A stretch of 64,000 bases of DNA from Roseburia sp. (GTDB lineage: Bacteria; Bacteroidota; Bacteroidia; Bacteroidales; Bacteroidaceae). Under the pieces are notes generated by a model. That model was not told the DNA's origin, did no database searches, and saw only the letters and a program-made list of their open reading frames with translations. This document shows positions 18,521 through 60,042 of the stretch, one piece after another. The position numbers were made by a program, and so were the translations under genes. Where the stretch lies: NCBI GenBank assembly GCA_023665185.1, contig JAMPEL010000011.1, positions 1 through 64,000 on the forward strand, given 5' to 3'. The first letter of the stretch is position 1, and each line of letters opens with the position of its first letter.

Positions 18521-18528
18521 TATCTTTG
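18521..18528 (+). promoter_or_regulatory. Probable -7 box of the AraC-type gene
   Basis: TATCTTTG matches TAnnTTTG. It lies inside the longest possible reading frame, which argues that translation begins at the later ATG (18552). No good -33 box is seen. Confidence 0.5.
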
Positions 18529-18551
18529 CACTAACAAAAACAACAAACTAT

Positions 18552-19457
18552 ATGGAAAGTAAAATAAGGAATATAGAAACTATTGCCGAATACAATAGTC
18601 TGCTTGGTATGGAAACACTGCATCCACTGGTCAGCGTCATCAATTTGGCTAACGCACAAAAAATACGTCACCAGCGTCACACTTTCGGATTCTACACCAT
18701 CTTTCTGAAAGAGGCGAAATGCGGCGACATCATCTACGGACGCAAATATTATGATTATCAGGAAGGCACCGTTGTATGTCTTGCTCCCGGACAGGTTATC
18801 GGCATAGAGGACAACGGAGAAACAATACAACCTCGCGGATGGGCACTGTGCTTCCATCCTGACATCATCAGAGGCACATCGCTTGGAAGTCACATCAAGG
18901 AATATTCCTTCTTCTCGTATGAAGTGAATGAGGCATTGCATTTGTCGCAAAAAGAGCGAGAGATTTTCACCGACTGTCTACAGAAGATACACCACGAGTT
19001 GGAACACAACATCGACCGTCTCAGCCGAAAGCTTATCGCCACCAACATAGAACTGCTTCTGGACTACTGCCTGCGTTTCTATGAGAGGCAGTTCATCACG
19101 CGTGAGACAGTAAACAGAGACATATTGGTAAGATTTGAATCGCTGCTCGATACATATTTTGATGAGGGAAAAGCCAAGACCGAAGGATTGCCATCGGTCA
19201 AGTGGTGCGCCGGAGAGCTGTGTCTTTCATCAAACTATTTCGGCGACCTGATAAAAAAAGAGACAGGAAAAACAGCGCATGAGCACATCCAACTCAAACT
19301 GATTAATATCGCAAAGGAACGCATACACAACTCATCGTATTCGATCTCGCAGATTTCATACGAATTGGGATTCCAATACCCGCAGCATTTCACGCGACTG
19401 TTTAAAAAGATGGTGGGCATGACACCCAACAAGTACAGGACAATATCAGCCGTCTGA
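18552..19457 (+). CDS. AraC-family transcriptional regulator
   Basis: 301 residues from the chosen ATG. An earlier in-frame ATG at 18507 would place the -7 box inside the gene, so the later start is preferred. The N-terminal cupin-like sensor region (about 1-150) includes KIRHQRHTFGFYTIFLK and GTVVCLAPGQVIGIED. The C-terminal double helix-turn-helix shows ELCLSSNYFGDLIKKETGKT and ISQISYELGFQYPQHFTRLF, then KKMVGMTPNKYR, the AraC signature. The target is unknown; neighbours (clpC, asnA) are not obvious candidates. Confidence 0.93.
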   Translation: MESKIRNIETIAEYNSLLGMETLHPLVSVINLANAQKIRHQRHTFGFYTIFLKEAKCGDIIYGRKYYDYQEGTVVCLAPGQVIGIEDNGETIQPRGWALCFHPDIIRGTSLGSHIKEYSFFSYEVNEALHLSQKEREIFTDCLQKIHHELEHNIDRLSRKLIATNIELLLDYCLRFYERQFITRETVNRDILVRFESLLDTYFDEGKAKTEGLPSVKWCAGELCLSSNYFGDLIKKETGKTAHEHIQLKLINIAKERIHNSSYSISQISYELGFQYPQHFTRLFKKMVGMTPNKYRTISAV

Positions 19458-31399: not shown

Positions 31400-31404
31400 A
31401 CAAT

Positions 31405-38959: not shown

Positions 38960-39029
38960 CTGAATGTTCGTATTAGATATGTTTCTATTAATTTCTTTCT
39001 TCAATTGTAGAATCATCTCATTCCGAGAA

Positions 39030-39095
39030 CAAAATTATATAAAAGAACCATTGCAAACAGAAACAAATGCTCTAAAAAATAGAATATTTGTTGCA
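39030..39095 (-). promoter_or_regulatory. PUL promoter P1 with shared upstream element (SusCD operon)
   Basis: The element begins TGCAACAAATATT (39095 down, minus strand) with ATTTTTT after it. The -7 box TAATTTTG (39037-39030) begins 53 bp from the CAAAT core. No -33 box is seen. This element is compared with P2-P5 in the findings. Confidence 0.55.
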
Positions 39096-39129
39096 ACAAA
39101 TGCACCATGCGACATATATATCAGAACTA

Positions 39130-39275
39130 TAACCACTTCATGCCTGTTTCAGCCTTTTTATGAAAATATAATATACCTTATTCGGATAAGCCTTAGAATA
39201 AAGCGAGTGTTTTATTGCTTTCGCAAGTACATCCCATACCAGTATAATAATGTCCGTACTTCGTTGCAGACTTCT
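39130..39275 (-). pseudogene. Possible 3' gene remnant related to the 21.3-kb fragment
   Basis: On the minus strand a frame reads VWDVLAKAIKHSLYSKAYPN, ending IKRLKQA and a stop. LYSKAYP and its surrounding bases match the truncated gene at 21.3 kb (LLYSKAYPEQ); both could be remains of the same gene family or a shared short repeat. It lies in the 0.7-kb gap between the SusCD operon and the GH2 gene. Low confidence. Confidence 0.3.
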
Positions 39276-39310
39276 TTTAGCCTGTGCCGTAAAAATAGGA
39301 ATAGCACGCA

Positions 39311-39380
39311 AAAATCTCAAAACCGCAGTGCAGTTTTTATAAACCACACTGCGGGTTTAAAAATTTCGTGCGGCAAAAAT
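39311..39380. repeat. Palindromic intergenic repeat, CAGTG family, locus 3
   Basis: AAACCGCAGTGCAGTTT and AAACCACACTGCGGGTTT lie side by side, followed by TTCGTGCGGCAAAAAT. The order and tail match the second unit at locus 1 and the first at locus 4. The rest of the gap (39381-39725) shows only a weak GC-rich hairpin near 39590-39615. Confidence 0.6.
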
Positions 39381-39725
39381 GAATTCAGACAACCACCTTA
39401 TCGTATTCACAGCACCTTCGGAGCGGTTCTTGTGGGCAGCAGGCATTCCCTATATTCATCCGAAGAATCTAACGGGATTTTATTATCCCGAACTCACATA
39501 TAACATACTAATCTTTAATCAGACTGCAATCCCTGCCAAAACAGGCAAACAGAAAAAGAAAGAGAGCATAAAAAAGTTCGTCCACCGCAGACTAAAGTCG
39601 TCCGCAGTGGATGAAACACATACAACACATCAACAATAATTGATTACAGAGCGTATTTACATTAATATATATATGCTATGCGTTATATAACTCCGACGAT
39701 GCGTCATGTCGGATAAGCCCAAACA

Positions 39726-42671
39726 CTATCGGTTATAAGGCTCCACAATGAGCTTGTATCCTCCGCCTTCAAGCAGCTGTTCCTCAAACTCAATGCTGAC
39801 ATTCTTGGTTTCGCCCGGCACGAGCGTAAAATAATTGTCATTCATTATAGCCGGAAGAATACGCTCGCCGTCAGATGTTCTTACAGCCTGCACCCTCACA
39901 GCAAAAGCCACATTCTTGGCAGACTTAGGCAAAGTGACAGCAGCTGTTATCACAGCCTTTCCGTCTTTCTTTGTCAGTTTTGAGGATGTACTGAGCTTTA
40001 CAGACTCCAACGTATTAAGAGCCGTGAAGTCCTTACGGTCATTGCCTCTCCAATAATTATTCTCTGATACCACTTTTCCATTCTTGTCTTTCAACTTCAG
40101 ACGAATGAAATGCACGTCGCTCAAATCTTCAGAAGGCTGTGTGCCACTAAGCACATCCATGTTCCACAATGAATATCCGAACCACCAGCCAAGCTCTATA
40201 CCGAACATCCGCACATAACGCGCCTTCACCTCAGGGAAGATAATCTCTTCTATTCCCTCACGGCCCTCATCTGTCTTATACACTTCTTTCCATCTCTCCG
40301 CGTCATTCGACACCTGAATCTTATACGACTTTCCGTATGCCGCCTCCCAATTGAGACGCACACCTCCTACAGGCTGAACACTTCCCAAATCGACATATAT
40401 CCATTCATTATCGGCTTTCTCTGCTGCCCAACGTGTATCACTGCGTCCGTCAGCCACAAAATCAGGATTTCCCTGTGCCGTAGACGAAGCCACGGCATGT
40501 TTGCCCAACGACAGATTGACGCGTTCCTTATTAAAGTCAAGCACAAAACATTGTGCGGCAGTATTGGATACAGAGTTGACTACTGCCGACTTACGATAAC
40601 GCTCTACCGGTTTGCCGTTCATATTATATACGACAGCCTCCGCCGTCAAATCCTCATAATCCCTTGCTGTTGTATTGACGACTTTAATTCCGTCTGTCAC
40701 TGGATTCCAGTAAATATGCAGAGGCTCGCAAGCCGACTTGCAACCCCAGTAGGCACCGGTCAAATCGTAGTAATAGTCATAAGTCTGCCACACCATAGAC
40801 GGATAAGCCGACTGTCCCATCCAAGTCATCACACCAGATGCGTCCTCCCATATATGGTCAAGCCATCCTTCATACAATGCCTTGTTCGACTCCAAATTTA
40901 TCAACTGCGCCTTACGGCAGAAATCCTCTGCATCTTTTGCCTCTCCAAAACCTTTGTTAATGGACTCAGCATATTTGTCAGGAAGCGCATTAAAAGCACT
41001 CTGACCAAAATAATGCTTGTTCCACATCTCATTGATTGGCCACCAGTCTTTTTCCGGCATAAACTTTTTAAGACTCTCAAAAGTTGGAACAACAGCCGTA
41101 CCAATTTCTGTTCTGAATCCCCAGCCACGCTGTCCGTCTCCTCCAGAAGAAGCATCCGGATAATTGGTGAAGTAATAACGCTGATCAAAAGCACCCCAAA
41201 AACCGCTTCCGCTCAGTCCGCCTGCATTGGAACACGGCTGGAAATAGCGGTCTCCACCATCAAATGTCTTCACATTTTCTGTCATCCATCCCACAAGAGG
41301 AGCTTCTGGAACAGCCTCATTGTCTCCACACCACACTGCTATGCACGGATGATTGCGCACACGCTTGATTTTCTCAACCATATTGTTGTTGAAAGCATTC
41401 AAATCGTATGGAAGATTCGGATTGGAATTAATCCAAAAATCGTCCCACACCATCAGTCCGTACTTGTCGCAATACTCATAAAACTCATCATCTGTTACAG
41501 AGCCAAGCCAATTGCGTATCATATTGAAATTCATTTCTTTATGAAGCGCAACCTTTGTCTCGTATTCTTTTCCACGGCAACGCAGCATATATTCCGACAT
41601 ACCCCAATTGGCACCTTTCACAAACACAGGTACACCGTTGATATGCAAATGGAATACATTGCCTTCCTTGTCATAGGTATATTTCTTTATACCAAAGGTC
41701 ACTTCCTTTGTTTCCGACACCTTTCCGTCACACACAGCCTCAAGCTTGCAGGTGTACAGATTTGGCTCGCCATATCCATTAGGCCACCACAGTTTCGGAT
41801 TGTTTATTACAAGTTGTGGGAAATACCGCTTGTCGAATCTGACTGTCTTCTGCTCGCCGGCATTGAGTTCCACCTCGCTTTCAAACTCAATGTTTCCAGG
41901 CATTATCACACCTTTCACCACTGTCTTCTTCCGCTCCGCGCCATTGTTGCCCACTTCCATTTCCACACTCACCTCAGCCTTAGCCCGTGTAGGAAGCTCT
42001 GTACGAACCCACGGGTCTGTCACCGTAGACTTACCCGTATTGCTCAAATACACCTTGTCCGTCAAACCGCTGTTGAGTCCTGGCACATATGGCATCCAGT
42101 CCCATCCTCCGCTCGACAGATAATTCGGACTTCCTTGATTGGCAAGCGGAGTCTTTGGAATACGAATCAACACGGCAAGCGTATTCTTTCCGTTCCGGCT
42201 TACTATTTCCGTAATATTGAAACGACCCCGGTGCATAAATCCGTCAAGCGTTCCAAGCAGCCTGCCGTTAAGATAAATGTCCGCACTGCGGTTGACACCG
42301 TTGAAATTCAGCCATACCAGTTCCTTGTCAAAATCCTGAGGAACAACAAACTCTGTGCGATACCAGAAACTTCTGTCGTATTTTGAACGGTCTACATTAT
42401 GGATATTGTCTCCAAAATTAGGGTCTTTCTCCTTACCAGCCTCCACATACGAGGTGAAAACAGTTCCGGGAACCACGGCAGCCACTGCTTCCGGATTCTT
42501 ATATCCTACCTTAGATATTTGTTGGATGTCGGACACAGCGTCTCTTTCAGGCATCACTTCCCATATGATGTTCTCCGCGCCACTATGCAGATACTTAATC
42601 TGCGCATCAGTCATACCACTTTGCAAAAATCCTGCAAGCAACAGGAATAAGGGTCTATAAAATGCTTTCAT
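39726..42671 (-). CDS. GH2 exo-beta-mannosidase or exo-glucosaminidase with F5/8C domain
   Basis: 981 residues from the ATG at 42671. Signal peptide (MKAFYRPLFLLLAGFLQSG...AQ), GH2 jelly roll (LNFNGVNRSADIYLNGRLLG), immunoglobulin-like domain, then the TIM barrel. The acid/base is E452 in WCGDNEA and the nucleophile probably E522 in RTEIGTAVVPTFESL, a pattern seen in CsxA-like exo-beta-glucosaminidases and beta-mannosidases. A discoidin (F5/8 type C) domain (about residues 720-845: TRWAAEKADNEWIYVDLG) is inserted before the last Ig-like domain. It removes a terminal beta-linked sugar, probably Man or GlcN, in the periplasm or at the surface. It has its own promoter (P2), between the HTCS gene and the SusCD operon. 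Confidence 0.88.
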   Translation of the reverse strand: MKAFYRPLFLLLAGFLQSGMTDAQIKYLHSGAENIIWEVMPERDAVSDIQQISKVGYKNPEAVAAVVPGTVFTSYVEAGKEKDPNFGDNIHNVDRSKYDRSFWYRTEFVVPQDFDKELVWLNFNGVNRSADIYLNGRLLGTLDGFMHRGRFNITEIVSRNGKNTLAVLIRIPKTPLANQGSPNYLSSGGWDWMPYVPGLNSGLTDKVYLSNTGKSTVTDPWVRTELPTRAKAEVSVEMEVGNNGAERKKTVVKGVIMPGNIEFESEVELNAGEQKTVRFDKRYFPQLVINNPKLWWPNGYGEPNLYTCKLEAVCDGKVSETKEVTFGIKKYTYDKEGNVFHLHINGVPVFVKGANWGMSEYMLRCRGKEYETKVALHKEMNFNMIRNWLGSVTDDEFYEYCDKYGLMVWDDFWINSNPNLPYDLNAFNNNMVEKIKRVRNHPCIAVWCGDNEAVPEAPLVGWMTENVKTFDGGDRYFQPCSNAGGLSGSGFWGAFDQRYYFTNYPDASSGGDGQRGWGFRTEIGTAVVPTFESLKKFMPEKDWWPINEMWNKHYFGQSAFNALPDKYAESINKGFGEAKDAEDFCRKAQLINLESNKALYEGWLDHIWEDASGVMTWMGQSAYPSMVWQTYDYYYDLTGAYWGCKSACEPLHIYWNPVTDGIKVVNTTARDYEDLTAEAVVYNMNGKPVERYRKSAVVNSVSNTAAQCFVLDFNKERVNLSLGKHAVASSTAQGNPDFVADGRSDTRWAAEKADNEWIYVDLGSVQPVGGVRLNWEAAYGKSYKIQVSNDAERWKEVYKTDEGREGIEEIIFPEVKARYVRMFGIELGWWFGYSLWNMDVLSGTQPSEDLSDVHFIRLKLKDKNGKVVSENNYWRGNDRKDFTALNTLESVKLSTSSKLTKKDGKAVITAAVTLPKSAKNVAFAVRVQAVRTSDGERILPAIMNDNYFTLVPGETKNVSIEFEEQLLEGGGYKLIVEPYNR

Positions 42672-42734
42672 CAATTATATAAATTTAGTTGGATTATCTC
42701 TATTGTGCCACACGAATATCAATTCAATGATATG

Positions 42735-42801
42735 CAAATGTATTCACAAATAAGATAATCCAACCCTAATCATAACACCATAAAATGCCACATTTGCAGC
42801 A
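42735..42801 (-). promoter_or_regulatory. PUL promoter P2 with shared upstream element (GH2)
   Basis: On the minus strand TGCTGCAAATGTGG then CATTTTATG (from 42801), and -7 box TACATTTG (42742-42735) starting 54 bp from the CAAAT core. Both nearly equal P5, 17 kb away. No -33 box. Confidence 0.65.
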
Positions 42802-42820
42802 AATCAGGATACAAATACCA

Positions 42821-45800
42821 TTATTTTGTATTTTCAGGAATCAAATCTTCTATTTTTATGCCGCTCACACCTCTCGACTTCTCACGTTCCTGCTCTATTT
42901 TCTTCTCAAAATCCTTAGGGGTCATGCCAAACTGCTTGCTAAAGAGCTTGCTGAAATACGAATGCGAGTTGAATCCCACCATAAAGCAAATCTCTCCTAC
43001 CCTGTATTTGCCTTCTTGAATAAGCTCAGCGGCTTTTTTCAGACGTATGAGCCTGATGAAATCGAGCGGTGCCATGTTGAACAAGGTCTTGATTTTACGG
43101 AGCAGACTTGAACGGCTCATACACAATTCCTCCGCCATTCGCTCTACATTGAATGTCTCATCGTCAAGATTGGAATTGATGACATCCAGCACTTTCTTCA
43201 TAAACGCCTCATCCTCCTTGCTCATCTGCATGTTCTTTACAGGGAAAAACGGACGCTTGGAGAATGCCTCACGCTCATTTTGTCTGTTGCCGAGCAATGA
43301 CATAACCTGCTGACGCAAATACTCAAATGAGAACGGTTTCTCGATATATGCCTCTGCCCCTACCTTCAATCCCTGTATCTTACTGTCCGTATCATTCTTG
43401 GCTGTCAGGAACACTACAGGAATGTGACACAGCTCTATGTCGCCTTTTATAGCCTGACACAACTCAAAGCCGTTCATGTCGGGCATCATCACATCACTAA
43501 TAACCAAATCGACAGGTGCCTTGTGAAGTATCTCCAATGCCTTTCTGCCGTTCTCAGCCGTCTCAACCACAAACGACTCCGACAAACGGTCTTCCATAAA
43601 ACTGAGAATGCTACGCTCGTCCTCCACAATAAGGAGTGTCTTTCCCTTCGCGTTTTCCTCGACAAAAAGTCCGGTATCGTTTATCGCCACATCCGTATTT
43701 GCCGCCACCACAGTCTCCGCTGTCTCCATTTCCATATTAAGAGGTATGGAAAGGACAAATGAGTTGCCATCTGTGCGCTGCAAGTCGAGATATAACGAAC
43801 CGTCATGAATCTCAGCCAACGAGCGCGATAACGAAAGTCCTATTCCCACTCCCTGCGCCTTTTCCTTGCGCTCATTATACTGATAGAACGGGTCGAATAT
43901 CTGCTCCGCCTTTTCTTTCGGAATACGCTCACCGTCACTGAATACCGTCAGCACAAAATTGCCGTTAGCCCTTTTCAGACTGACAGAGATATTATGCTCG
44001 CCATATTTTCTTGCATTGTTCAGCAGATTGCTTAAAATCTTGGTAATAGCCTCCTTGTCAATCTTGGCAAAGACACTGTCCTCTATATCCACATTTTCCA
44101 ACACTTTCCCCTGATGCGTGAAAGTAGGCTCAAAACGGTCTACTGTTTCCTTGAGCAACGACGACACGTCTGTCACCTCATAATTAGGCTTCAGTTTGTT
44201 CGCACCTATCTTCTGGAAATCGAGCAATTGCGACGCAAGGTTCAGCAGACGTTTCGTATTCTGCGATATGACCTTCAAATTCTTTGCCAACTTGTCACTG
44301 CCAATGTTCATTTCCTCGATTATCTCCAGTGGTCCGTTTATCAGCGTCAGCGGAGTACGTATCTCATGCGCTATCTCCGTGAAGAAATTCACCTTGTTCT
44401 GATACAGTTCCTTTTCTTTCTCTATCTCAAACAGTTTCTGCTTCTCTTTCAGTTGCTTGTTCTTGTGCTCGCGATACCACAGAAACCACCCATATACGAT
44501 ACATGCCAGCAGAACGAAGTACAGGCATATCGCCCATACGGACATCCACCACGGAGGCAGCACCTTTATCCGCAATGTCTTCACAGCGGCATACTCTTCC
44601 GGTCCCTCCGAGGTGGCACGTATATATAATGTGTATGTACCCGGATTCAGGTTGGCATATTGTATGTTTCCTTCCGTACCGATGCTCACCCACTTGCTGT
44701 CAATAGGGTCAAGCTTGTAGTAATACTGATTGGCAAATGCCGTAGAATAAGACAACAGAGCGAAGTCAAGACTTATATTCGTCCTGTTATATGGCAGCAC
44801 TATCTCTTCTGTTTCCAGAATGCTCTTCTCCAACGGACTCTCAGGCATACCCACCTTCATTTCCTCATTAAAAATAGACAACCGTGTCAGGTAAATTTCT
44901 CCGGCAGGCTTTTTGTCGCATTTTATCTCCGGGTCGAAAGACAACAATCCGTTGATGGTGCCAAAATAGAATTTACCGTCGCTTCCCGCCACAGCCGACT
45001 TATAATTGAACTGGTTCTCACACAAGCCGTCCTTCATGGTGAAAACACGGACATTTCCGTCCTCAGGATTCATCATGACAAGCCCTCGGTTGGTGCCAAA
45101 CCACATATTGCCGCTCCTGTCCTCAAGTATCTTATATGCCACATCGTCCGGCAGCCCTTCCATTATAGAATAGCGGGTAAAATCATTTGTCTTCCTATTA
45201 TACCGGCACACACCGCCTCTGTCTGTCGAGAACCAAATATTCCCTTTGCTGTCCTGCATAATGGAACTGACAGAAGTGGAGCTTAACGACGCAGCATTGT
45301 CTTTCTCATGATTATACTTTATGTACTTTCCATTTTTGGCATCATACCTCACCACTCCGTTTCCCATTGTGGCAAACCATATATCACCGTTTCCTTCTTG
45401 CATAATATCAAACACCCACAAGTCTTTCAGTCCCTCAATAGGATGGAAATCAAACGAGTTGCTTTCCGCCTTATATGCTCCTCGGTCTGTACCGACATAG
45501 ACTTCTCCGTTTCTTGCCGTAAGTTGCGAATACACGCTTCCATCAAGATGCAGCTGTCCGTTCTTATAATAAAATGATTTCCCGGTCTTGTCAATCACCT
45601 CAAATCCGTCTTTATACAAGCCGCAATATATATTCCTGTTATCGGCAGACACAGACAATGTGATGTCCGATTCCTCATGAAGCTGACTGTGCTGAAAAGG
45701 CTCTATAACTCCCTCTTTCAGGCTCATGCGCTTTATGCCGCTGTTTTCCGTACCAATCCACAATGTTCCGTTTCCATCCTCCGCCATTTCCCTGACCCTT

Positions 45801-46876
45801 ATGTCTGTTATGAAACTACCGTTGTTTGCCGACAGATTATGATGCTTGAATGTAAGCGGACGGTTTGCCATATAATTGGCACCTCCAAACATAGTGCCAA
45901 TCCATATACCGTTCTCTCTGTCCTGAAAAGTGGTATAAATGATATTGTCCGAAAGTCCTTCCTTATTATTAATGCTCTGTCTGTAATGCCTTACGACTCC
46001 ATTTTTCTCGTTCAGCACATAGAGTCCGTTATATGTGCCTACATATATGTCCTGACCAAATACCGAGGCATTTCTCACGTATGTGTGCTTGAAGTTCTGC
46101 AAAGTAATGTCCCTCAACATATTGCGCTTATAGTCATACTTTTTCAACTCACCGTTCTGCACAGCCAAAATAAGGTTGTCGCCTTGTTGCGACAGCGTAT
46201 TGGTCTCTATATTCAACAAAGACTTTCCGTTTGCATCTTTCGTATGAGTCACAAACTCATCTTTCTTCCTGTCATATTCCAGCAGTCCGATATTCCATGC
46301 ACAACTCCAAATGCTTCCGTCAGAACACACACATACATTTATCGGCATGTTGCTCTTGCTGCCTGTATCAGGAGAATAAAGTTTCAGGTTTCCCTGCATG
46401 TCATATTTGAATATGCCGTTATCGGGCACTACAATCCATATATTGCCGTCCTGATCTTCCTTGATGTCCGCCACCCATCCTTTCATGCTTATTCCATCAG
46501 CGGTTTTGGTATCGACAAAAGAGAATGTCTCGGTCACTTGATTGTATCGGTAGACACCCTCATCGGTGCCCACCCACAACACATTGTCGCTGTCGGAGAA
46601 CAAGGCCGAGATATTCTGGTTTCCACAATGCAGTTTCTCATCATAGCAATAAACCCGTATCACTCTTTGCCCGTCATATCGATTCAAACCGTTCTTTGTG
46701 CCCAGCCATATAAATCCATAATTGTCCTGCGCAATCGCTTTCACATTACTTTGTGACAATCCAGTCTCACTATTGACATGCATGAACGAGTCATGTCTGG
46801 CTGTTGCCGCAGAATATGTCGTATCGGTCAGACACAACGTAATGACAGTTAATAATAGAAACAGATTCTTCTTCAT
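42821..46876 (-). CDS. Hybrid two-component system regulator (HTCS) of the PUL
   Basis: 1351 residues, one protein holding sensor, kinase, receiver and DNA-binding parts, sitting in the inner membrane. Signal peptide, then periplasmic beta-propeller repeats (about 30-690, repeated IWLGTKNG/IWIGT/MWFGT units), a Y_Y_Y domain (about 700-770), one membrane segment (VWAICLYFVLLACIVYGWFL), HisKA with phospho-acceptor H837 in EIAHEIRTPLTLI, HATPase (NLLNNARKYG, GVGIGLSLSRS), receiver with D1128 in VISDVMMPDMNG, and a C-terminal AraC helix-turn-helix (GEICFMVGFNSHSYFSKLF). The ATPase G1 box reads SDGERIP rather than DxGxG, a variation I believe occurs in other HTCS. It should bind an oligosaccharide in the propeller and activate the five PUL promoters. 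Confidence 0.96.
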   Translation of the reverse strand: MKKNLFLLLTVITLCLTDTTYSAATARHDSFMHVNSETGLSQSNVKAIAQDNYGFIWLGTKNGLNRYDGQRVIRVYCYDEKLHCGNQNISALFSDSDNVLWVGTDEGVYRYNQVTETFSFVDTKTADGISMKGWVADIKEDQDGNIWIVVPDNGIFKYDMQGNLKLYSPDTGSKSNMPINVCVCSDGSIWSCAWNIGLLEYDRKKDEFVTHTKDANGKSLLNIETNTLSQQGDNLILAVQNGELKKYDYKRNMLRDITLQNFKHTYVRNASVFGQDIYVGTYNGLYVLNEKNGVVRHYRQSINNKEGLSDNIIYTTFQDRENGIWIGTMFGGANYMANRPLTFKHHNLSANNGSFITDIRVREMAEDGNGTLWIGTENSGIKRMSLKEGVIEPFQHSQLHEESDITLSVSADNRNIYCGLYKDGFEVIDKTGKSFYYKNGQLHLDGSVYSQLTARNGEVYVGTDRGAYKAESNSFDFHPIEGLKDLWVFDIMQEGNGDIWFATMGNGVVRYDAKNGKYIKYNHEKDNAASLSSTSVSSIMQDSKGNIWFSTDRGGVCRYNRKTNDFTRYSIMEGLPDDVAYKILEDRSGNMWFGTNRGLVMMNPEDGNVRVFTMKDGLCENQFNYKSAVAGSDGKFYFGTINGLLSFDPEIKCDKKPAGEIYLTRLSIFNEEMKVGMPESPLEKSILETEEIVLPYNRTNISLDFALLSYSTAFANQYYYKLDPIDSKWVSIGTEGNIQYANLNPGTYTLYIRATSEGPEEYAAVKTLRIKVLPPWWMSVWAICLYFVLLACIVYGWFLWYREHKNKQLKEKQKLFEIEKEKELYQNKVNFFTEIAHEIRTPLTLINGPLEIIEEMNIGSDKLAKNLKVISQNTKRLLNLASQLLDFQKIGANKLKPNYEVTDVSSLLKETVDRFEPTFTHQGKVLENVDIEDSVFAKIDKEAITKILSNLLNNARKYGEHNISVSLKRANGNFVLTVFSDGERIPKEKAEQIFDPFYQYNERKEKAQGVGIGLSLSRSLAEIHDGSLYLDLQRTDGNSFVLSIPLNMEMETAETVVAANTDVAINDTGLFVEENAKGKTLLIVEDERSILSFMEDRLSESFVVETAENGRKALEILHKAPVDLVISDVMMPDMNGFELCQAIKGDIELCHIPVVFLTAKNDTDSKIQGLKVGAEAYIEKPFSFEYLRQQVMSLLGNRQNEREAFSKRPFFPVKNMQMSKEDEAFMKKVLDVINSNLDDETFNVERMAEELCMSRSSLLRKIKTLFNMAPLDFIRLIRLKKAAELIQEGKYRVGEICFMVGFNSHSYFSKLFSKQFGMTPKDFEKKIEQEREKSRGVSGIKIEDLIPENTK

Positions 46877-47001
46877 ATATTAAATTAAAGTTTTAATATG
46901 GTTTGTCAACATCGGATGCAGCATATTTATTATGAACATCTTAGCAATAGCAAAACCTGTTATCATATCTGCACACAACAGGCATTGCATCATTCCATGA
47001 G

Positions 47002-47033
47002 CAAAAATACTCTTTTTTTTCTTTTATTCCAAA
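47002..47033 (-). promoter_or_regulatory. Promoter of the HTCS gene
   Basis: On the minus strand TTTG (47033-47030), 20 bp, TATTTTTG (47009-47002): a standard promoter with a -33 box and no PUL element, fitting constitutive low-level expression of the sensor. Leader about 120 nt. Confidence 0.6.
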
Positions 47034-47219
47034 TTATTTTCATTTACAGCCATAAATATATGTATTCTTCGCATACATTGAGAAATGTTGTTCCGCGAGA
47101 TGATGTGTTACGGGTGTGTTTGAAAGATTTTACATAAAGCTAAACAACGAAGAGATTTATATAAAAACATCAGCAAAACACATAAAGTACTTACATTTTG
47201 ACATGTTAAAACTCATTCT

Positions 47220-47800
47220 CGTAGAATCCGCTCAAAATCAACCGAACCTTACCACGGTTGCAAAAACGCGATTCTACGGGACTTTTAATTCCTCAAAAAT
47301 CAAGCGGACAAATAGAACATTCCGCATAACGAAAAGAACAATAAAATTGAGTAAAAGTGAGACTTTTCCAAAATTACAAGGTGAAGTAATTTTTTTTGCA
47401 AGGCGAACCAATTTTTTTTGCAAGGTGCTGAAAAATTTTTTTCAAGGTGAAAGAAATTTTCAAAGCCCGTTTTTGGGACCAAAATCGGGTATTTTTCAAG
47501 ATTATCCCCTTAAAAATACCGCAACAGCCTTTTCAATGCTCCGAAAAACAAAAATTGATTTTGAACTCGAAAAACGATCATTTCAAGGAGAAATTTTCAT
47601 AACTCACTGATTATCAACGCATCCTATTTTATGTCCAACCCTTAGTTTTTGGTCTAAAACTACACCCTTTTAAGCAAAATAGCATCTACTTGATAATCTG
47701 ACACTTAACACTATCCAGAGCGAAATTGTGCGCATTTCAAGTCAAAAGCGAGTGCCTGAAATGTTAAAATCAGGCTCATCCGCCAACTGACAAAATGTCA
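47220..47800 (+). repeat. 0.6-kb intergenic module, copy C
   Basis: Same plan as copy A: 59-nt hairpin (47220-47278), four array units starting AAGG at 47378, 47400, 47422 and 47444 (exact 22-bp period), hairpin AAAGCCCG/CGGGT (about 47461-47490), a TGATTATCAA site and the near-palindrome TGACAAAATGTCA (47788-47800). No terminal inverted repeats. Just beyond, GAGGAGCCATATACCTTATT (near 47870) resembles part of the loop of the 36-bp inverted repeat. The rest of the 1.27-kb gap 46877-48151 holds the two promoters. Confidence 0.7.
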
Positions 47801-48053
47801 ATTATCCGTTCCGAACTTCCCGTTTAGAAAACCTATTATCGGGCATGTCCAAGCTACTCATGGAGAGGAGCCATATACCTTATTAATATGTATGCCAGTC
47901 GTACAGGCTGACTCACCGTCATAAAACCAATACACATACAGAAAATCTACACACCACACTTACAAAAAAATCCGACACACGCATTATCCCTCCGCACACC
48001 CTCCTTCAAATTTGCTTCAAATTATACAACAAATAAGCCAATCACCCTCAATA

Positions 48054-48120
48054 TGAAGTAAATATGTCATAACTTCATGCGAAAAGACCATATATAGATT
48101 TGAAAAAGCAATTAAATTTG
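48054..48120 (+). promoter_or_regulatory. PUL promoter P3 with shared upstream element (GH95 block)
   Basis: TGAAGTAAATATGTCAT (from 48054) is the most diverged copy of the element; its AAAT core lies 54 bp before the -7 box TAAATTTG (48113-48120). A second -7-like TAGATTTG is at 48095-48102. The element also contains an inverted repeat, ATGAAGT...ACTTCAT (48053-48079). Confidence 0.5.
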
Positions 48121-48151
48121 CCCTCATGACAAAATCGAATGAGAACAAACA

Positions 48152-50584: not shown

Positions 50585-50617
50585 ATCCCACACATGCAAA
50601 TTCACATTAAAGCATAA

Positions 50618-52273: not shown

Positions 52274-52346
52274 ATTGGGCAACAAACAGAAGCCCGACAA
52301 TAATCATCATGATAAAACCGTTATCAAAAAAAACAATTAGAATAAG

Positions 52347-54617
52347 ATGAATACAATAAAAACAACAATCTCAACATTATTGATAGCTTTGTCTTCCGGC
52401 ATGTACGCACAAGAAGACTATGCGAAATACGTGAATCCCTTCATCGGGACAGGTGCCGTAGCACAAAGTCTTAGCGGAAACAACTATCCGGGAGCGACAG
52501 TTCCTTTCGGAATGGTACAGCTTTCGCCCGACACGCGTGAGGCACCGGACTGGGCGCAGGCTTCCGGCTACGACTATAATGACAATACCATTTACGGTTT
52601 CTCACACACCCGCCTCAGCGGTACCGGTGCGGCGGATTTCATCGACATTCTGCTGTTGCCTACCACAGAGCTTCGTCGTCAGAGCACTTTCAGTCATGAG
52701 GAGGAGGAGGCAAAACCCGGCTATTACAAAGTCAGACTGAAGGATAATGACATCCTTGCCGAACTGACAGCCACCACACGCACCGGTGTACACCGCTACA
52801 CTTACCCGCAGGGCAAACAGGCAATGGTCTACATCGACCTTGATCACTCGGCAAACAAAGGATCATGGGGACGCAGAATCGAAAACTCGCAAATAAGGAT
52901 TGTCGACGAATATACGATTGAAGGCTACCGCATCATTACCGGATGGGCAAAACTGAGAAAGGTGTATTTCAGCATGAAGTTCTCTGCCCCTATCCAAAAC
53001 TGGGAAGTATGGAACAACGGTACACTGTATAAAAACACCAACGTCAGCAACGGAACGGACATAAAAGGCACATTCAATTTCGGCAAGCAAAAGCAGATTA
53101 CATGCACGGTTGCCCTTTCTCCGGTATCCATTGCGAATGCCAGAGAAAACATGCAGGCAGAAAGCGAAGGAAAAGACTTCGACAAACTATGTAAGGAAGC
53201 ATATGACTCATGGAATGAAGAGCTTGGGAAAATAGAAGTTAAGACCAATGACAAAGAGGATTTGAAAATCTTCTACACAGCACTCTACCACTCCATGATT
53301 CAGCCAAATACGTTCTCTGATGTAAACGGAGAATACATGACTGCCGACTACTCTGTAGCAAAGGTAGAAGAAGGGCACACTCATTATTCAACATTCTCAC
53401 TGTGGGACACCTTCCGAGGCGCACATCCTCTGTATACGATTATCGAACCGGAACGGACGGCAGACTTCGTCACAAGCATGTTGAAGCAATATGAGTATTA
53501 TGGCTACCTGCCTATATGGCAACTTTGGGGACAGGACAACTATTGCATGATTGGCAACCATGCCGTACCGGTCATCGTAGACGCCGTACTGAAAGGGCTG
53601 TGCAATGACCCACGACACATCGTGTCGCCGACAACAGGCAAGACAACCGGAAAAATCAAGTCGTGGGACAATGTTCTTTATGACGCAGTGAAGGGAAGCC
53701 TGACCACCTCACATCTTAACTCGCCTTTTGAGGTGTGGGACAAATACGGTTATATGCCGGAAGACATTCAGACCCAATCGGTATCAATCACTCTTGAACA
53801 AAGTTTCGATGATTGGTGCGCGGCACAACTTGCCAAGCATGTCGGACAAACAGAAGACTATGAATATTTCATGAAGCGTTCAGCCTATTACCGCAATCTG
53901 TACAATCATGAAAGCCATTTCTTCCAGCCTAAAAACAGCAAGGACGAATGGATTCTGCCTTTCGACCCATACAAATACGGCTCAAATGGAGGTTCTGCCT
54001 TTACGGAGGGTAACGCATGGCAATACTATTGGTATGTTCCTCATAATGTCGATGACCTCGTATCGCTCACAGGCGGAAAGGCCGCTTTCTGCAAAAAACT
54101 GGACGAGTTCTTCACTTCCACAAAGACCAGCGGAGAGAAGAACGACAATGCCTCTGGATTTGTAGGATTGTATGCCCATGGAAATGAGCCAAGCCATCAT
54201 GTGGCATACCTGTACACTCTGGCAGGGCAGCCTCAAAAAACACAGCAGATTGTCAGCCATATAAAGAAAGAGTTGTACAACACATCCTCTTCGGGATATG
54301 CCGGCAACGACGACTGTGGAGAAATGTCTGTATGGTATGTGTTCTCTGCTATCGGTTTCTATCCTGTGAACCCAGCCTCGGGAGAGTATGTAATCGGAAG
54401 TCCTTCCGTAGACGAGGCTGTGTTGAAGGTTGGAAAAGACAAGACATTCACCGTGAAAGTACAGCGTGGAAGCGACAGCGACATCTATATAAAAGACATC
54501 AAGCTTAACGGCAAGAAGTTCAGCTCACCTGTCATCAAGCATTCAGATATAGCCAATGGAGGAAGACTGGAGTTTATAATGGGCAGCAAGCCTCGCGGAA
54601 CAATTCTGAAACTCTAA
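52347..54617 (+). CDS. GH92 alpha-mannosidase (probably exo-alpha-1,2)
   Basis: 756 residues; signal peptide MNTIKTTISTLLIALSSGMYA. GH92 enzymes are calcium-dependent inverting exo-alpha-mannosidases. The family start is textbook: YVNPFIGTG, YPGATVPFGMVQLSPD, then IYGFSHTRLSGTGA. Further signatures are FSLWDTFRGAHPLY, FTEGNAWQYYWYVPHN (general-acid region) and GNDDCGEMSVWYVFSAIGFY (aspartates of the base and calcium site). Linkage preference cannot be read with certainty. It is the last gene of its operon, followed by a terminator. Confidence 0.94.
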   Translation: MNTIKTTISTLLIALSSGMYAQEDYAKYVNPFIGTGAVAQSLSGNNYPGATVPFGMVQLSPDTREAPDWAQASGYDYNDNTIYGFSHTRLSGTGAADFIDILLLPTTELRRQSTFSHEEEEAKPGYYKVRLKDNDILAELTATTRTGVHRYTYPQGKQAMVYIDLDHSANKGSWGRRIENSQIRIVDEYTIEGYRIITGWAKLRKVYFSMKFSAPIQNWEVWNNGTLYKNTNVSNGTDIKGTFNFGKQKQITCTVALSPVSIANARENMQAESEGKDFDKLCKEAYDSWNEELGKIEVKTNDKEDLKIFYTALYHSMIQPNTFSDVNGEYMTADYSVAKVEEGHTHYSTFSLWDTFRGAHPLYTIIEPERTADFVTSMLKQYEYYGYLPIWQLWGQDNYCMIGNHAVPVIVDAVLKGLCNDPRHIVSPTTGKTTGKIKSWDNVLYDAVKGSLTTSHLNSPFEVWDKYGYMPEDIQTQSVSITLEQSFDDWCAAQLAKHVGQTEDYEYFMKRSAYYRNLYNHESHFFQPKNSKDEWILPFDPYKYGSNGGSAFTEGNAWQYYWYVPHNVDDLVSLTGGKAAFCKKLDEFFTSTKTSGEKNDNASGFVGLYAHGNEPSHHVAYLYTLAGQPQKTQQIVSHIKKELYNTSSSGYAGNDDCGEMSVWYVFSAIGFYPVNPASGEYVIGSPSVDEAVLKVGKDKTFTVKVQRGSDSDIYIKDIKLNGKKFSSPVIKHSDIANGGRLEFIMGSKPRGTILKL

Positions 54618-54663
54618 GACAACCACACAAATATCTTAAGTTCAAAATCTTTTTATTGTCAGG

Positions 54664-54697
54664 AAATAGGGATTCATGGTCGTGTGAATCCCTATTT
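54664..54697 (+). terminator. Terminator of the GH95-GH43-GH92 unit
   Basis: Perfect 13-bp stem AAATAGGGATTCA with 54685-54697 and an 8-nt loop, ending in T-rich sequence. Element copy B begins 4 bp after it. Confidence 0.75.
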
Positions 54698-54700
54698 TAT

Positions 54701-55819
54701 GGTTCATCCGACATTTTGAGTGATTTATCTTGTTTTTATAGAGTTGAGTCTTGATGTTGGCAATGTTTTGCTGATGAATCAGACAGACTCCTTGACTTTT
54801 TGCAAGTATGTTTTTGAGGGTATTCAGACAGACTCCTCCGTCACTTCGTGACACCTCCCCTAACTTAGGGAAGGAACTATATACCTTGTCAATCAACACG
54901 TTAGTTTCTCTACGAACATAGTAACCTGGCTCCTCCTCTAAGTTAGAGGAGGTGTCACGAAGTGACGGAGGAGTCCGTCACAAAAGTCAATAAAAATTAG
55001 AGTATACTGACATTTTGATATGTTAAATCCCTACTCCGTAGAATCGCCTCAAAATGAACCGAACTCAACCTCGGTTGCAAAAACGCGATTCTACGGCGAC
55101 TTCTAACCCTCAAAATCCAAGTGGACAAACAGAACAATCCAACCGACTAAAAGATATAAAATTTCGACCCAAAACACACCTTTCCCATCCAAAAGCCCAC
55201 TAAAACCCAAAATTACAAGGTGCTGAAAATTTATTTCCAAGGCACACTGATTTTTTTCGCAAGGTGAACAAAATTTATTTTCAAGGTGAACAAAATTTTC
55301 AAAGCCCGTTTTTCGGCCTAAAATCGGGCATTTTCCCAAATCACCTCTTCAAAAAGACGGCAACCGTCTTTTCCATGCCCCGAAAAACAAAAAATGGATT
55401 TTGAACCCGGAAAAAGACGATTTCAAGACAAAAATTTCATAACTCTCTGATTATCAATACATCCTATTTTGACTTTAACCATGCGTTCTACATCTAAAAC
55501 CGCACACTTTTTACTAAAAACACATTTAACTGATTATCAATGATTTACCAATAAAACATTCAAAAATCAATCATTGAGTCAAAGTCGATAGCCGCCCCAA
55601 ACGTTAAAATTCGCCTTCTTTCCAAAGTGACATAATGTCAAAACATTCCTTGCCCGTATACTGTTGTCCTGCTATATGCGAGGCAGAATGTTTGGGTTTG
55701 AGACTTCCGTTTATAAAGCGCATACAAGTGATGCAATGAATGTATGGAGACGCTGCTATTTATTTGATAAGGGCTGTACCCACAGTGTATCGCGTATCAC
55801 TCGAAATGTCGGATGAACT
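54701..55819 (+). mobile_element. 1.12-kb non-autonomous element, copy B, with terminal inverted repeats
   Basis: Left end GGTTCATCCGACATTTTGAG (from 54701) and right end 55797-55819 are inverted repeats matching at 21 of 23 positions. Length 1119 bp. It is similar to copy A along its whole length: 36-bp-arm inverted repeat (54833-54868 with 54938-54973), module B, and the tail from CCTTGCCCGTAT to the right end. The left flank ends in TTTAT as in copy A; a clean target duplication is not visible. No coding frame of transposase size. Confidence 0.65.
55036..55640 (+). repeat. 0.6-kb intergenic module, copy B
   Basis: 61-nt hairpin (55036-55096), four array units starting AAGG at 55217, 55239, 55261 and 55283 (exact 22-bp period), hairpin AAAGCCCG/CGGGC (about 55302-55330), TGATTATCAA sites, and the perfect palindrome TGACATAATGTCA (55628-55640). 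Confidence 0.7.
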
Positions 55820-55855
55820 ATTTTTTTGTATTCCGACACCTCAAAACAAGCTGTA

Positions 55856-55922
55856 TGCACCAAATGTATTATTTTATGATGTATTAATTTCATTGCGAAA
55901 CAATCTTTTGTCCGTATTTTTG
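55856..55922 (+). promoter_or_regulatory. PUL promoter P4 with shared upstream element (GH3)
   Basis: TGCACCAAATGTATT then ATTTTATGATG (from 55856), and -7 box TATTTTTG (55915-55922) starting 54 bp from the CAAAT core. A partial -33 (ATTG, 55892-55895) lies 19 bp before the -7 box. Confidence 0.6.
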
Positions 55923-55992
55923 CATATCATAATTTTAATGATAACATACATATCGGGACATCACTATTCAAAACAAATACATAATTAAAGTT

Positions 55993-58287
55993 ATGCATCA
56001 TTTGAGAAACTACATGACAGTATTGCTGCTTGGAGCAGCAACAGGACTGGCAAGCGCGCAGACGCTTCCTGAAAACAAAGAGAAGATGTTGTATAAGGAC
56101 AGTACGCAACCCATTGAGATACGGGTCAACGACCTGCTCCGGAGAATGACGCTCCACGAAAAGGTGCTGCAATTACAAAACAACTCAACAAGCGATCCGG
56201 ACGCAATGGAAAGTACTTACAAAGGAGAGAGCACCGGCACCACGCACGAGATGAGCAAGTCGGCAGCAGAAGCTGCCGCCGTGTTCGACCGTATGCACCA
56301 TTATATGGCAGAGAACACCCGGCTGGGAATCCCGGCTCTGACCACAGTGGAAGGCATTCACGGTGTGTTGCAAAACGGATGCACCATCTTTCCGCAGGCA
56401 ATAGCACAAGGAGCGACCTTCAATCCTGAGCTTATAGAAAGAATGACAGGCGCAATAGGACGCGAGGCGCGTGTTATTGGAGTACACCAGTTGCTCTCGC
56501 CAGTCCTCGACATCGCACGTGAGTTGAGATGGGGACGTGTGGAGGAGACATTCGGCGAAGACCCTTACCTAATCTCACAAATAGGCACGGCTTTTGTCAA
56601 AGGCTCACAGGCGCAAGGTGTAGGGTGTATGCCCAAACATTTCGTGGCGCACGGAACACCGACCGGCGGTCTGAACTGTGCCTATGTGGCAGGCGGAGAG
56701 CGCGAGATGCGCAACCTATATATATATCCGTTTGCAAAAGTAATAAAGGATGCCGACCCTACCGCTATCATGAGTTGTTACAGCGCGTATGACGGTGTGC
56801 CGGTAAGCGGCTCTTCCTATTATATGACCGACCTGCTGAGAGGCGAGCTTGGATTCAAAGGGTTCGTATATTCCGACTGGGGTTCGGTAGACAGACTGCG
56901 CGTATTCCATTATTCCGCACAGACCTCGGAGGAGGCCGCCCGACGCTCTCTGATAGCCGGAGTCGATATGGACGTATGGGACTGGGCTTACAGCACCCTT
57001 GAAGAACAAGTGGAACGCGGCATCATTGACGAATCGTATATAGACCGTGCCTGTCGCCGGATACTTACCGCAAAATTCAAGCTCGGACTTTTTGAGGACC
57101 CTTACGGACAGCCGGACAAAGTAGGAAAGGTTGTCAGAAGCAAGGAACATGTCGCATTGGCAAAGGAAGTGGCAGACGAAAGCATTGTCCTGCTGGAAAA
57201 CAAGAACAATATCCTGCCTCTCGATTCCAAGAAATACAAATCCATAGCCGTCCTCGGTCCGAACAGCAACTACGGTGTGGCTGGAGATTACGGATGGGTG
57301 GAAAAGGACCATCACGAATGTGTCACACTGCTTGAAGGTCTTCAATCGCTTGTAGGAAAAGACATTGAGCTGCGCCATCAAGAAGGTTGTGACTGGTGGA
57401 GCCAAGACGACAAGGACATAGACAAGGCTGTAGAACTGGCTTCACAAAGCGACATTGCCATTGTGGCAGTAGGAACCCGGAGCCTTTGGCTGGGACGAAA
57501 TGCCAAAGCGGCAAAGGTGACATCAGGAGAAGGTTTCGACCTTTCCTCACTCGAACTTCCGGGCAAACAGCTTGAGCTGTTGAAGGCAGTGAAAGCGACA
57601 GGCAAACCGATGATTGTCGTACTTATTACGGGCAAGCCGCTTGTCATGACATGGGCAAAGGAAAATGCGGATGCGGTGGTGCTGCAGTTCTACGGAGGAG
57701 AGCAGCAGGGAAATGCTCTTGCCGATATGCTTTTCGGCAACGTAAACCCTTCCGGACGCTTGAATATCTCATTCCCGCGCAGCACAGGCAATGTGCCATG
57801 TTTCTATAACTACTATCCTACCGACCGCGAACAGGTCTTCGATCAGGGAGGCAGTTATGAGGAACCAAACGGACACTATATTTTTGAAAAACCGTATGCG
57901 CTTTGGCAATTCGGTTATGGACTGAGCTATACGACATTTGAATATGACAATCTTCAGCTCAACGACACTATTTTTTCTCCGGAAGGCGAACTGAGAATAA
58001 AACTGACCGTAAAGAATACAGGCACACGCGAAGGTAAAGAGGTTGTCCAAGTATATGTAAGAGACAAGTTCAGCACTGTACTTACCCCGATTCAGCAGCT
58101 CAAGGCATTCAAGAAAGTCAATCTGAAAGCCGGCAAACAGACTGAGGTAGAACTGAGCATACCTATCGACGAGCTGGCATTATACAACGAGCGTCTGCAA
58201 CGCATGGTTGAACCCGGAGAATTTGAGATTCAAGTCGGAACAGCCTCCGACAATATAAAGATGCGGCGCAGCATATATGTAAAATAA
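55993..58287 (+). CDS. GH3 beta-glucosidase / beta-xylosidase
   Basis: 764 residues; signal peptide MHHLRNYMTVLLLGAATGLASA. Three-domain BglX-like GH3: TIM barrel, alpha/beta sandwich and C-terminal fibronectin-III-like domain (LTVKNTGTREGKEVVQVYV). Signatures are LGIPALTTVEGIHGVL, GWGRVEETFGEDPYLISQIG-type substrate loops (here ELRWGRVEETFGEDPY), KHFVAHGTPTGGLN and the nucleophile D295 in GFVYSDWGS. Family members remove terminal beta-glucose, beta-xylose or related residues; the choice is not visible. It is a single-gene unit with its own PUL promoter, between element B and mutY. Confidence 0.93.
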   Translation: MHHLRNYMTVLLLGAATGLASAQTLPENKEKMLYKDSTQPIEIRVNDLLRRMTLHEKVLQLQNNSTSDPDAMESTYKGESTGTTHEMSKSAAEAAAVFDRMHHYMAENTRLGIPALTTVEGIHGVLQNGCTIFPQAIAQGATFNPELIERMTGAIGREARVIGVHQLLSPVLDIARELRWGRVEETFGEDPYLISQIGTAFVKGSQAQGVGCMPKHFVAHGTPTGGLNCAYVAGGEREMRNLYIYPFAKVIKDADPTAIMSCYSAYDGVPVSGSSYYMTDLLRGELGFKGFVYSDWGSVDRLRVFHYSAQTSEEAARRSLIAGVDMDVWDWAYSTLEEQVERGIIDESYIDRACRRILTAKFKLGLFEDPYGQPDKVGKVVRSKEHVALAKEVADESIVLLENKNNILPLDSKKYKSIAVLGPNSNYGVAGDYGWVEKDHHECVTLLEGLQSLVGKDIELRHQEGCDWWSQDDKDIDKAVELASQSDIAIVAVGTRSLWLGRNAKAAKVTSGEGFDLSSLELPGKQLELLKAVKATGKPMIVVLITGKPLVMTWAKENADAVVLQFYGGEQQGNALADMLFGNVNPSGRLNISFPRSTGNVPCFYNYYPTDREQVFDQGGSYEEPNGHYIFEKPYALWQFGYGLSYTTFEYDNLQLNDTIFSPEGELRIKLTVKNTGTREGKEVVQVYVRDKFSTVLTPIQQLKAFKKVNLKAGKQTEVELSIPIDELALYNERLQRMVEPGEFEIQVGTASDNIKMRRSIYVK

Positions 58288-58397
58288 TTCAAGGCAATCA
58301 TAAATGTCTGAACAAGAAAATCCATTTCTGACACATTCGTCTCCGAAAGTCCCAGAAATGGATTTTCTTTTTTCCGCCATACGGCACAGAGTTGGCT

Positions 58398-59474
58398 TCA
58401 TATCATGCCATGACGTTCAAGCAAGAGGGTTATAGGACGGGGAAAGGCATAGTCGGAAAGGCTGTCCTGCGACACCCAACAAACATCTTTCAACACCCCG
58501 TCATCCGGTTTCTGCCGCAAGTCAAGACGATAGAAATTACATATCAATGTACGGTGTGTCAGCTGATGCCGCATATTTTCTTGTAAGACACTCCAAGTGA
58601 CACCCTCGCCTTTTGCAAAAGCAGGCAGCGCGCCGTCAGCCAACAACCCTTCCAAAGAGCATGGAGCGGCAGTCTCTATCAGAAAAGGCTCATACAAACC
58701 TTTCCATATATCCTCGCCGTTTCTCCGGAACAAAGCAATCTCGTCCTCTACACGGATGAATATATAATGAAAATAACGCACTGATATTCTTGGAGAACGG
58801 GATTTTACAGGCAAAGTATGCACCTTGCCGTCTTGAAAAGCCACGCAGTTCCCGACCAAAGGACATGCCGCACACTCAGGCGAATGGGGTACACACTGCA
58901 ACGCTCCAAAGTCCATTATCGCCTGATTGTAATTTGCCCCACTCTCTCCCTTTGGCAACAAGCTCTGTGCAAGACGGGCAAAATATTTTTTTCCGGCAGC
59001 TGTGTCAGTGGGTTCCGTGATACCAAAATAACGGGCAAGCACACGGTAAACATTTCCGTCCACCACGGCATGAGGCAGTCCGAAAGCAAAAGAGGCAATG
59101 GCTGCCGCCGTATAATCACCCACTCCTTTCAGGGAGCGAATGTCCTGATAGGTTTCCGGAAAGCCACCCCGTTGTGCCACCTGACGCGCCGCAACATGCA
59201 AGTTGCGCGCCCTCGAATAATAGCCAAGTCCCTGCCAGCATTTAAGCACATCTTCTTCTTCGGCTTGCGCCAATGTCTTCACATCGGGAAAACGCTGTAT
59301 AAAGCGCAAAAAGTAATCATATCCCTGAGCCACACGGGTCTGTTGGAGAATAATCTCCGAAATCCATATCAAATAAGGATTGCGTGTCTCCCGCCAGGGA
59401 AGATGCCTGTGGTTCTCTCCATACCATACAAGAAGTGTATGGGCAAACGATTTATCCATAAACATACGGTTCAT
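58398..59474 (-). CDS. mutY: A/G-specific adenine glycosylase MutY
   Basis: 358 residues. It removes adenine mispaired with 8-oxoguanine. The helix-hairpin-helix glycosylase core shows HLPWRETRNPYLIWISEII, with the catalytic Glu in SEIILQQTRV, LKGVGDYTAAAIASFAF, and the catalytic Asp in AVVDGNVYRVLAR. The 4Fe-4S cluster cysteines have the exact C-x6-C-x2-C-x5-C spacing (CVPHSPECAACPLVGNC). A C-terminal NUDIX-like domain that recognises 8-oxoG follows. It is a housekeeping gene on the opposite strand within the PUL, with no functional link to it. Confidence 0.96.
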   Translation of the reverse strand: MNRMFMDKSFAHTLLVWYGENHRHLPWRETRNPYLIWISEIILQQTRVAQGYDYFLRFIQRFPDVKTLAQAEEEDVLKCWQGLGYYSRARNLHVAARQVAQRGGFPETYQDIRSLKGVGDYTAAAIASFAFGLPHAVVDGNVYRVLARYFGITEPTDTAAGKKYFARLAQSLLPKGESGANYNQAIMDFGALQCVPHSPECAACPLVGNCVAFQDGKVHTLPVKSRSPRISVRYFHYIFIRVEDEIALFRRNGEDIWKGLYEPFLIETAAPCSLEGLLADGALPAFAKGEGVTWSVLQENMRHQLTHRTLICNFYRLDLRQKPDDGVLKDVCWVSQDSLSDYAFPRPITLLLERHGMI

Positions 59475-59576
59475 TAAAGCAGCACAAAATTATATCATTT
59501 AGAGACTGTCCGAAATTTATTTGAATATTTTTTGAGCAAACGGCTGTAGAAACCTAAATCCACCCCGCTATTTTTT

Positions 59577-59725
59577 TATAAACCGCACTGCGGTTTGTAA
59601 AAACAGCACTGTGGTTTGAAGAATTTTGCGCGCAAAAAAATCTTTTTCTCCCTGTGATTTTTCAAATACATCATACTAAATTTTCAAATCAGCAGTGCTG
59701 ATTTGATTTTTTTTGCTCGCCAATC
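59577..59725. repeat. Palindromic intergenic repeat, CAGTG family, locus 4
   Basis: First unit: AAACCGCACTGCGGTTT, then AACAGCACTGTGGTTTG and tail GAATTTTGCGCGCAAAAAAA (59577-59640). Second unit: ACTAAATTTTCAAATCAG, core CAGCAGTGCTG, ATTTGATTTTTTTTGC (about 59674-59715). Both unit types of locus 1 are present in reversed order. Apart from promoter P5, the gap 59475-60086 shows no gene. Confidence 0.65.
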
Positions 59726-59976
59726 TGACTTTTACTTCATAGCCCCCAAAAGGATAAACCGCTCCTCAAAATTATAAGTTCTTCCCAAATTAAGATTTGT
59801 GGAATGCTGTTTTTCAGCATGTAGAATCATCGGCACTCCGCAAAACCAAAATACAACAGTCACCATCGCCCTGTATCTTTACAGCCACAAATCCTCAAGA
59901 CAAGAAGAAGACAGTCCATTCAAAAATAAAAGATTTAGTTCAGAAAAATGCAAAAAGCCTTTCTTTTTCAATCCAA

Positions 59977-60042
59977 TGCAACAAATGTGGCATTTTATGA
60001 TGTGATGGTTATATATATATTATTTTCTTATAAATACATTTG
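59977..60042 (+). promoter_or_regulatory. PUL promoter P5 with shared upstream element (GH29 block)
   Basis: TGCAACAAATGTGG then CATTTTATGATG (from 59977), and -7 box TACATTTG (60035-60042) starting 53 bp from the CAAAT core. Nearly identical to P2. No -33 box. Confidence 0.65.

Follow-up and report, generated by a model that had tools for sequence, protein, structure and literature searches.

A direct repeat at constant spacing to the -7 box in five PUL promoters of a gut Bacteroidaceae bacterium as the probable operator of the adjoining HTCS

Some activators of the AraC family, e.g. AraC at araI, are placed adjacent to the -35 element. In the HTCS motifs of B. thetaiotaomicron, two conserved sites form a direct repeat whose period averages 21 bp (Ravcheev 2013, PMC3878776; RegPrecise), and the HTCS_Rgu-1 motif is composed of two 12-bp sites and a 9-bp spacer (PMC3878776). 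DNA binding by BT4124 and BT4663 depends on phosphorylation (mBio 2024, PMC11253607). In EMSA, response-regulator fragments of B. thetaiotaomicron HTCSs bound susCD promoters in a phosphorylation-dependent manner, and the S/CHIP motif accompanies phosphorylation-dependent DNA binding in this organism (PMC11253607). Direct-repeat motifs of HTCSs are thus known; what we add is a well-supported candidate operator with corrected boundaries, together with the five-unit regulon predicted from it.

The DNA analysed here (the window) is a stretch of 64,000 nt from a gut Bacteroidaceae bacterium with a genome of 3.38 Mb. It encodes a complete HTCS, located between the promoters P2 and P3, which unites a Reg_prop sensor, Y_Y_Y, HisKA, HATPase_c, a receiver and an AraC-type HTH in one chain (Pfam). 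HTH_18 covers residues 1247-1325, and the solved HTCS protein 12aw matches the domain. The receiver carries CHIP of the S/CHIP motif, the consensus inhibitory interface. The element described below is located upstream of the susCD and enzyme genes adjoining the HTCS gene (Table 1). Downstream of P1 lie an 881-aa fasciclin-domain protein and then SusC/SusD pairs, downstream of P3 the unit GH95-GH43-GH92, and downstream of P5 a GH29 and an acetylesterase-like gene. Three fasciclin-domain proteins are encoded in the SusCD operon (27917-29497, 29525-31408 and 36371-39016, minus strand). The first gene of this operon probably starts at the ATG at 38959 (minus strand; MYTKSKRGVYIRRNKFYLCV..., signal-peptide-like) rather than at 39016, since the latter leaves nearly no leader after the -7 box. 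An AraC-family gene at 18507-19457 (plus strand) adjoins asnA (aspartate-ammonia ligase). A search of 38-64 kb against Rfam gave no match.

Table 1 Features around the HTCS gene. The distance given with each -7 box runs from the core C/T of the element to the first T of TAnnTTTG
Feature	Position	Strand	Basis or remark
P1 -7 box TAATTTTG, 53 bp	39030-39037	-	sequence
P1 direct repeat: half-site 1 39095-39084 TGCAACAAATAT, half-site 2 39074-39063 TAGAGCATTTGT	39063-39095	-	sequence; matrix from other genera
GH2	39726-42674	-	downstream of P2
P2 -7 box TACATTTG, 54 bp	42735-42742	-	sequence
P2 direct repeat TGCTGCAAATGT / TGGTGTTATGAT	42769-42801	-	pattern, matrix, GH2 orthologs
HTCS regulator, 1351 aa	42821-46876	-	Pfam, sequence, DBD alignment
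HTCS gene's own promoter, TTTG-N20-TATTTTTG, without element	47002-47033 (47033-47002)	-	sequence
Reverse-facing element just upstream of P3	48008-48040	-	16.9 bits; G001 ortholog 27.1 (matrix from other genera)
P3 weak direct repeat TGAAGTAAATAT / TCATGCGAAAAG	48054-48086	+	leave-one-out 6.8 bits, G001 alignment, GH95 orthologs
P3 -7 box TAAATTTG, 54 bp	48113-48120	+	sequence
P4 direct repeat TGCACCAAATGT / TGATGTATTAAT	55856-55888	+	matrix rank 1, GH3 orthologs
P4 -7 box TATTTTTG, 54 bp	55915-55922	+	sequence
GH3	55993-58287	+	downstream of P4
P5 direct repeat TGCAACAAATGT / TGATGTGATGGT	59977-60009	+	matrix rank 4, G001 ortholog
P5 -7 box TACATTTG, 53 bp	60035-60042	+	sequence

All five promoters possess the TAnnTTTG -7 box of primary-sigma (sigma-ABfr) promoters. 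An earlier, sequence-only reading of the window had assigned a shared element to each of them, and its coordinates, strands and core-to-box distances were right. The consensus it proposed, TGCAnYAAATRT-N3-ATTTTnTG, captures a pattern common to the five sites, but individual sites deviate from it: P2 has TGCT, P1 ends ATTTTTTA and P3 departs in several places (TGAAGTAAATATGTCATAACTTC). Its element of ~26 bp at about -40 to -66 is real, but the boundaries have to be extended to about -70 to -38, if the -7 box is set with its first T at about -12. The element is a direct repeat of two 12-bp half-sites with a period of 21 bp, and the block previously read as ATTTTnTG consists mostly of the AT-rich spacer, followed by the two opening letters of half-site 2.

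The repeat was examined in an alignment of 26 non-redundant sites chosen on columns 1-26 and the -7 box; the conservation in these columns and at TAnnTTTG derives partly from that selection, and some of the compared genomes are close relatives. Strong columns are T1, G2, M3, C6, A7 and T12, followed by T22, G23, G26, C27, A28 and T33. Columns 27-33, unused in the selection, repeat columns 6-12 to a degree equalled by 5 of 20,000 random blocks, and the period of 21 gave 5.5 matches of 12, versus 2.4-4.3 for the other periods from 8 to 45. As the second set of columns repeats the first at 21 bp, the putative operator is written TGMNGCAWWTGT-N9-TGRNGCAWWTGT. The half-sites differ at AAA/TTT and a raw identity test (≥7/12) was therefore uninformative in the ortholog set; column tests were used instead. 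Two other arrangements were discarded, an inverted repeat (AAATG-N3-CATTT in P2 and P5) that is absent in P1, P3, P4 and the relatives, and a period of 12 (GCANNNNATG twice in P5) that is weaker than 21. P2, P4 and P5 have a degenerate half-site 2, which counts against the element being an HTCS operator. At P1, an extra inverted half-site abuts half-site 1 at 39085-39110 (minus strand), giving the palindrome ATTTGTTGCAACAAAT, which is kept in both sister species.

Genome-wide scans were done by pattern, and position matrices were applied to the window and to ortholog regions. The 23-bp pattern TGCWNCAAATRTNNNATTTTWTG matches the 3.38-Mb genome exactly at three places, P2, P4 and P5; one mismatch admits P1 and a single match in a coding region. 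None of the 22 other matches with up to three mismatches (besides P1, P2, P4 and P5) has TAnnTTTG at 53/54. The composite of element and -7 box (≤3 mismatches) occurs in the window's genome and two congeners (~10.3 Mb) solely at P1, P2, P4, P5 and their orthologs, and the reversed composite has no match in the same ~10.3 Mb. Since these patterns were drawn from the sites themselves, independent tests weigh more. With a matrix built solely from 19 sites of other genera, the four best-scoring positions of the window were, in descending order, P4, P1, P2 and P5; P3 came 19th. Across 596 kb surrounding the HTCS orthologs of other genera, a matrix from the four window sites (≥8 bits) gave 23 matches with TAnnTTTG at 53/54 versus 9 at all other offsets combined, and 60 column-shuffled matrices averaged 0.02 matches at 53/54 in the same DNA.

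The distribution of the element follows that of the HTCS. Among 399 Bacteroidaceae genomes, composite sites (≤1 mismatch) were present in 9 of the 14 genomes with an HTCS ortholog (about 49% identity or more) versus 1 of the 385 without (p = 3e-14); leaving out the window's genus, the figures are 6/11 versus 1/385 (p = 6e-10). G298, which has a near-perfect composite site and no HTCS ortholog, was taken as a chance case; the gene downstream looks like one for a mobilisation relaxase. Genomes that conserve the HTCS also conserve the element before orthologous targets. Six genomes, the two sister species among them (G001, G002, G201, G086, G049 and G077), have sites before GH2 as well as before the initial gene of the SusCD operon, and GH3 orthologs are preceded by a site in G001, G201, G086 and G343; the P5 ortholog in G001 precedes an esterase-like gene. 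In other genera, the sites before GH2, SusCD-operon and GH3 orthologs keep the distance to the -7 box seen in the window. The HTCS DBDs of orthologs whose genomes hold the sites are 65-97% identical, and their first recognition helix, SRSSLLRKIK, is nearly constant.

That another regulator binds the element, for example the AraC-family protein mentioned above or a global regulator like the Crp-type BT4338/Cur, is quite improbable in view of this distribution. The AraC-family gene is indeed part of the window, and relatives of it occur in 12 of the 14 genomes with an HTCS ortholog, but it has no match in two element-bearing genomes (G077 and G361), and in the sister species G001 it and the PUL are on separate contigs. 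BT4338 also controls some PULs; the element, unlike a global site, is confined to this PUL within the genome, and compared by eye with the published consensus it does not resemble the Crp/Cur (BT4338) palindrome TATGTTnTAnAACATA.

P3 is the weakest of the five sites, as had been claimed: in leave-one-out scoring it reached 6.8 bits versus 28.7-34.1 for P1, P2, P4 and P5, and its poor fit counts against the element being an HTCS operator. The matrix alone cannot recognise P3, so spacing and orthologs have to carry the case for it. Forward sites, mostly weak, precede GH95 genes at exactly 53/54 in four further genomes (G292, G248, G343 and G077), which makes P3 believable as a weak but genuine site. 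Most of the spacer between the HTCS gene and GH95 aligns poorly to the sister species; few of its stretches are conserved in G001, the P3 block among them. An alternative, which we consider unlikely though deserving of attention, is that P3 is not a forward site and that control of the GH95 unit comes from the reverse-facing element just upstream, which the unit would share with the HTCS gene by ancestry. The matrix from other genera scores this reverse site above P3, which obtains 6.3 bits (5.0 in G001), and the G001 ortholog of the reverse site (G001:C60:55213, locus L142) is stronger than the window copy. HTCS-facing elements are also present in the corresponding spacer of G201, G086, G049 and G077. 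The conserved P3 block and the forward GH95 sites speak against this alternative and for P3 as a site of its own. The reverse-facing elements in the divergent spacer hint at an ancestral autoregulation of the HTCS. The spacer itself (46877-48151) measures 1.27 kb here versus ~240-480 bp in G201, G049 and G077, and holds a 22-bp imperfect AT-rich tandem array at 47377-47460.

The five promoters had been described as devoid of a -33 box and the promoter of the HTCS gene as having one while lacking the element. Both observations stand: TTTG 22-25 bp before the -7 box was found in 0/5 of the former and in 0/26 element promoters, and the HTCS promoter shows the expected pair of boxes, which is kept in G001. 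The interpretation that the element replaces -33 contacts is not supported. The operator stops just upstream of -33, its downstream half-site ending ~26 bp before TAnnTTTG, and abuts this region without covering it. Moreover, a TTTG at -33 is scarce in all promoter sets (7-9% versus a background of 4-5%; in random regions ~7% versus 4%), so that its absence is weak evidence. As only 7% of random promoters have TTTG, the missing box does not exclude the sigma-ABfr promoter class either.

The same geometry recurs near other HTCSs. In 40 loci around non-orthologous HTCSs (32-46% identity), every TAnnTTTG followed by an open frame was collected, and the strongest repeat signal obtained without any matrix was a period of 21 starting 58 bp before the box (z 7.8). 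TG-N19-TG at 58/59 bp before TAnnTTTG occurred in 36 of 166 promoters, versus about 1 at other offsets; these sites are distributed over 28 of the 40 loci, and strict deduplication leaves 31 sites in 22 loci. None of the 89 promoters from 20 randomly chosen regions of comparable genomes had TG-N19-TG at 58/59. The inner letters of the half-sites differ among these loci; with the spacing fixed and the letters varying by HTCS, the spacing looks like a rule for the whole family. We consider it likely that promoters activated by HTCSs in the Bacteroidaceae follow a common grammar, TG(n10), a 9-bp AT-rich spacer and again TG(n10), starting 58/59 bp before TAnnTTTG, with letters specific to each HTCS. 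These data also bear on whether the element could be a core-promoter or UP-like feature of strong promoters instead of a regulator site. Its constant distance to the -7 box and its AT-rich spacer would suit such a feature, but random promoters have no TG-N19-TG at this distance, the other promoters of the genome lack the element, and near other HTCSs the letters change while the geometry stays, which leaves that explanation hardly credible. The 58/59 rule was not found in the literature searched, which took in few subscription journals and no supplements.

The 21-bp direct-repeat layout, the co-occurrence with the HTCS ortholog and the conservation before target orthologs suggest that the element is very probably the operator of the HTCS encoded between P2 and P3, and that the five units form one glycan-induced regulon. 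The same assignment had been made in the sequence-only reading and is retained here, strengthened by these three lines of evidence and with its boundaries and the -33 interpretation corrected. We infer HTCS binding, its dependence on phosphorylation and a contact with polymerase as follows. The AraC-type domain of each HTCS monomer would recognise one 12-bp half-site (TGMNGCAWWTGT), and a tethered dimer would occupy the two half-sites, which at 21 bp, or two helical turns, would lie on one face of the DNA. Given the ~26 bp between the downstream half-site and TAnnTTTG, the phosphorylated HTCS, positioned just upstream of -33, could recruit RNA polymerase carrying the primary sigma factor, or position it. 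A glycan would thereby induce the SusCD operon, GH2, GH95-GH43-GH92, GH3 and GH29-esterase together. Five operons would thus be tied to one sensor by an operator whose boundaries are now corrected. If general, the fixed distance between repeat and -7 box predicts HTCS targets and suggests a mode of RNA polymerase contact; if the grammar is true, the regulons of most uncharacterised HTCSs would be readable from sequence without prior comparative data.

The element resembles the B. thetaiotaomicron HTCS motifs in its period of 21 bp, in the 12+9+12 composition of HTCS_Rgu-1 and in its location before susCD and enzyme operons adjoining the HTCS gene. The likeness is one of layout, since the present HTCS belongs to another clade and genus and its site has letters of its own (TGMNGCAWWTGT). 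The distance to the -7 box, absent from the main text of Ravcheev 2013, is fixed in the window's promoters. Similar to BT4124 and BT4663, the HTCS joins an AraC-type DBD to a receiver bearing the conserved S/CHIP motif, and its predicted targets include susCD promoters; it is, however, a different HTCS, known here from its sequence. The arrangement also recalls that of AraC at araI, a direct repeat of about two helical turns whose downstream half-site adjoins the upstream box of the promoter. In contrast to araI, the promoter is of the Bacteroidota TAnnTTTG type, the regulator is membrane-tethered and there is no evidence of looping.
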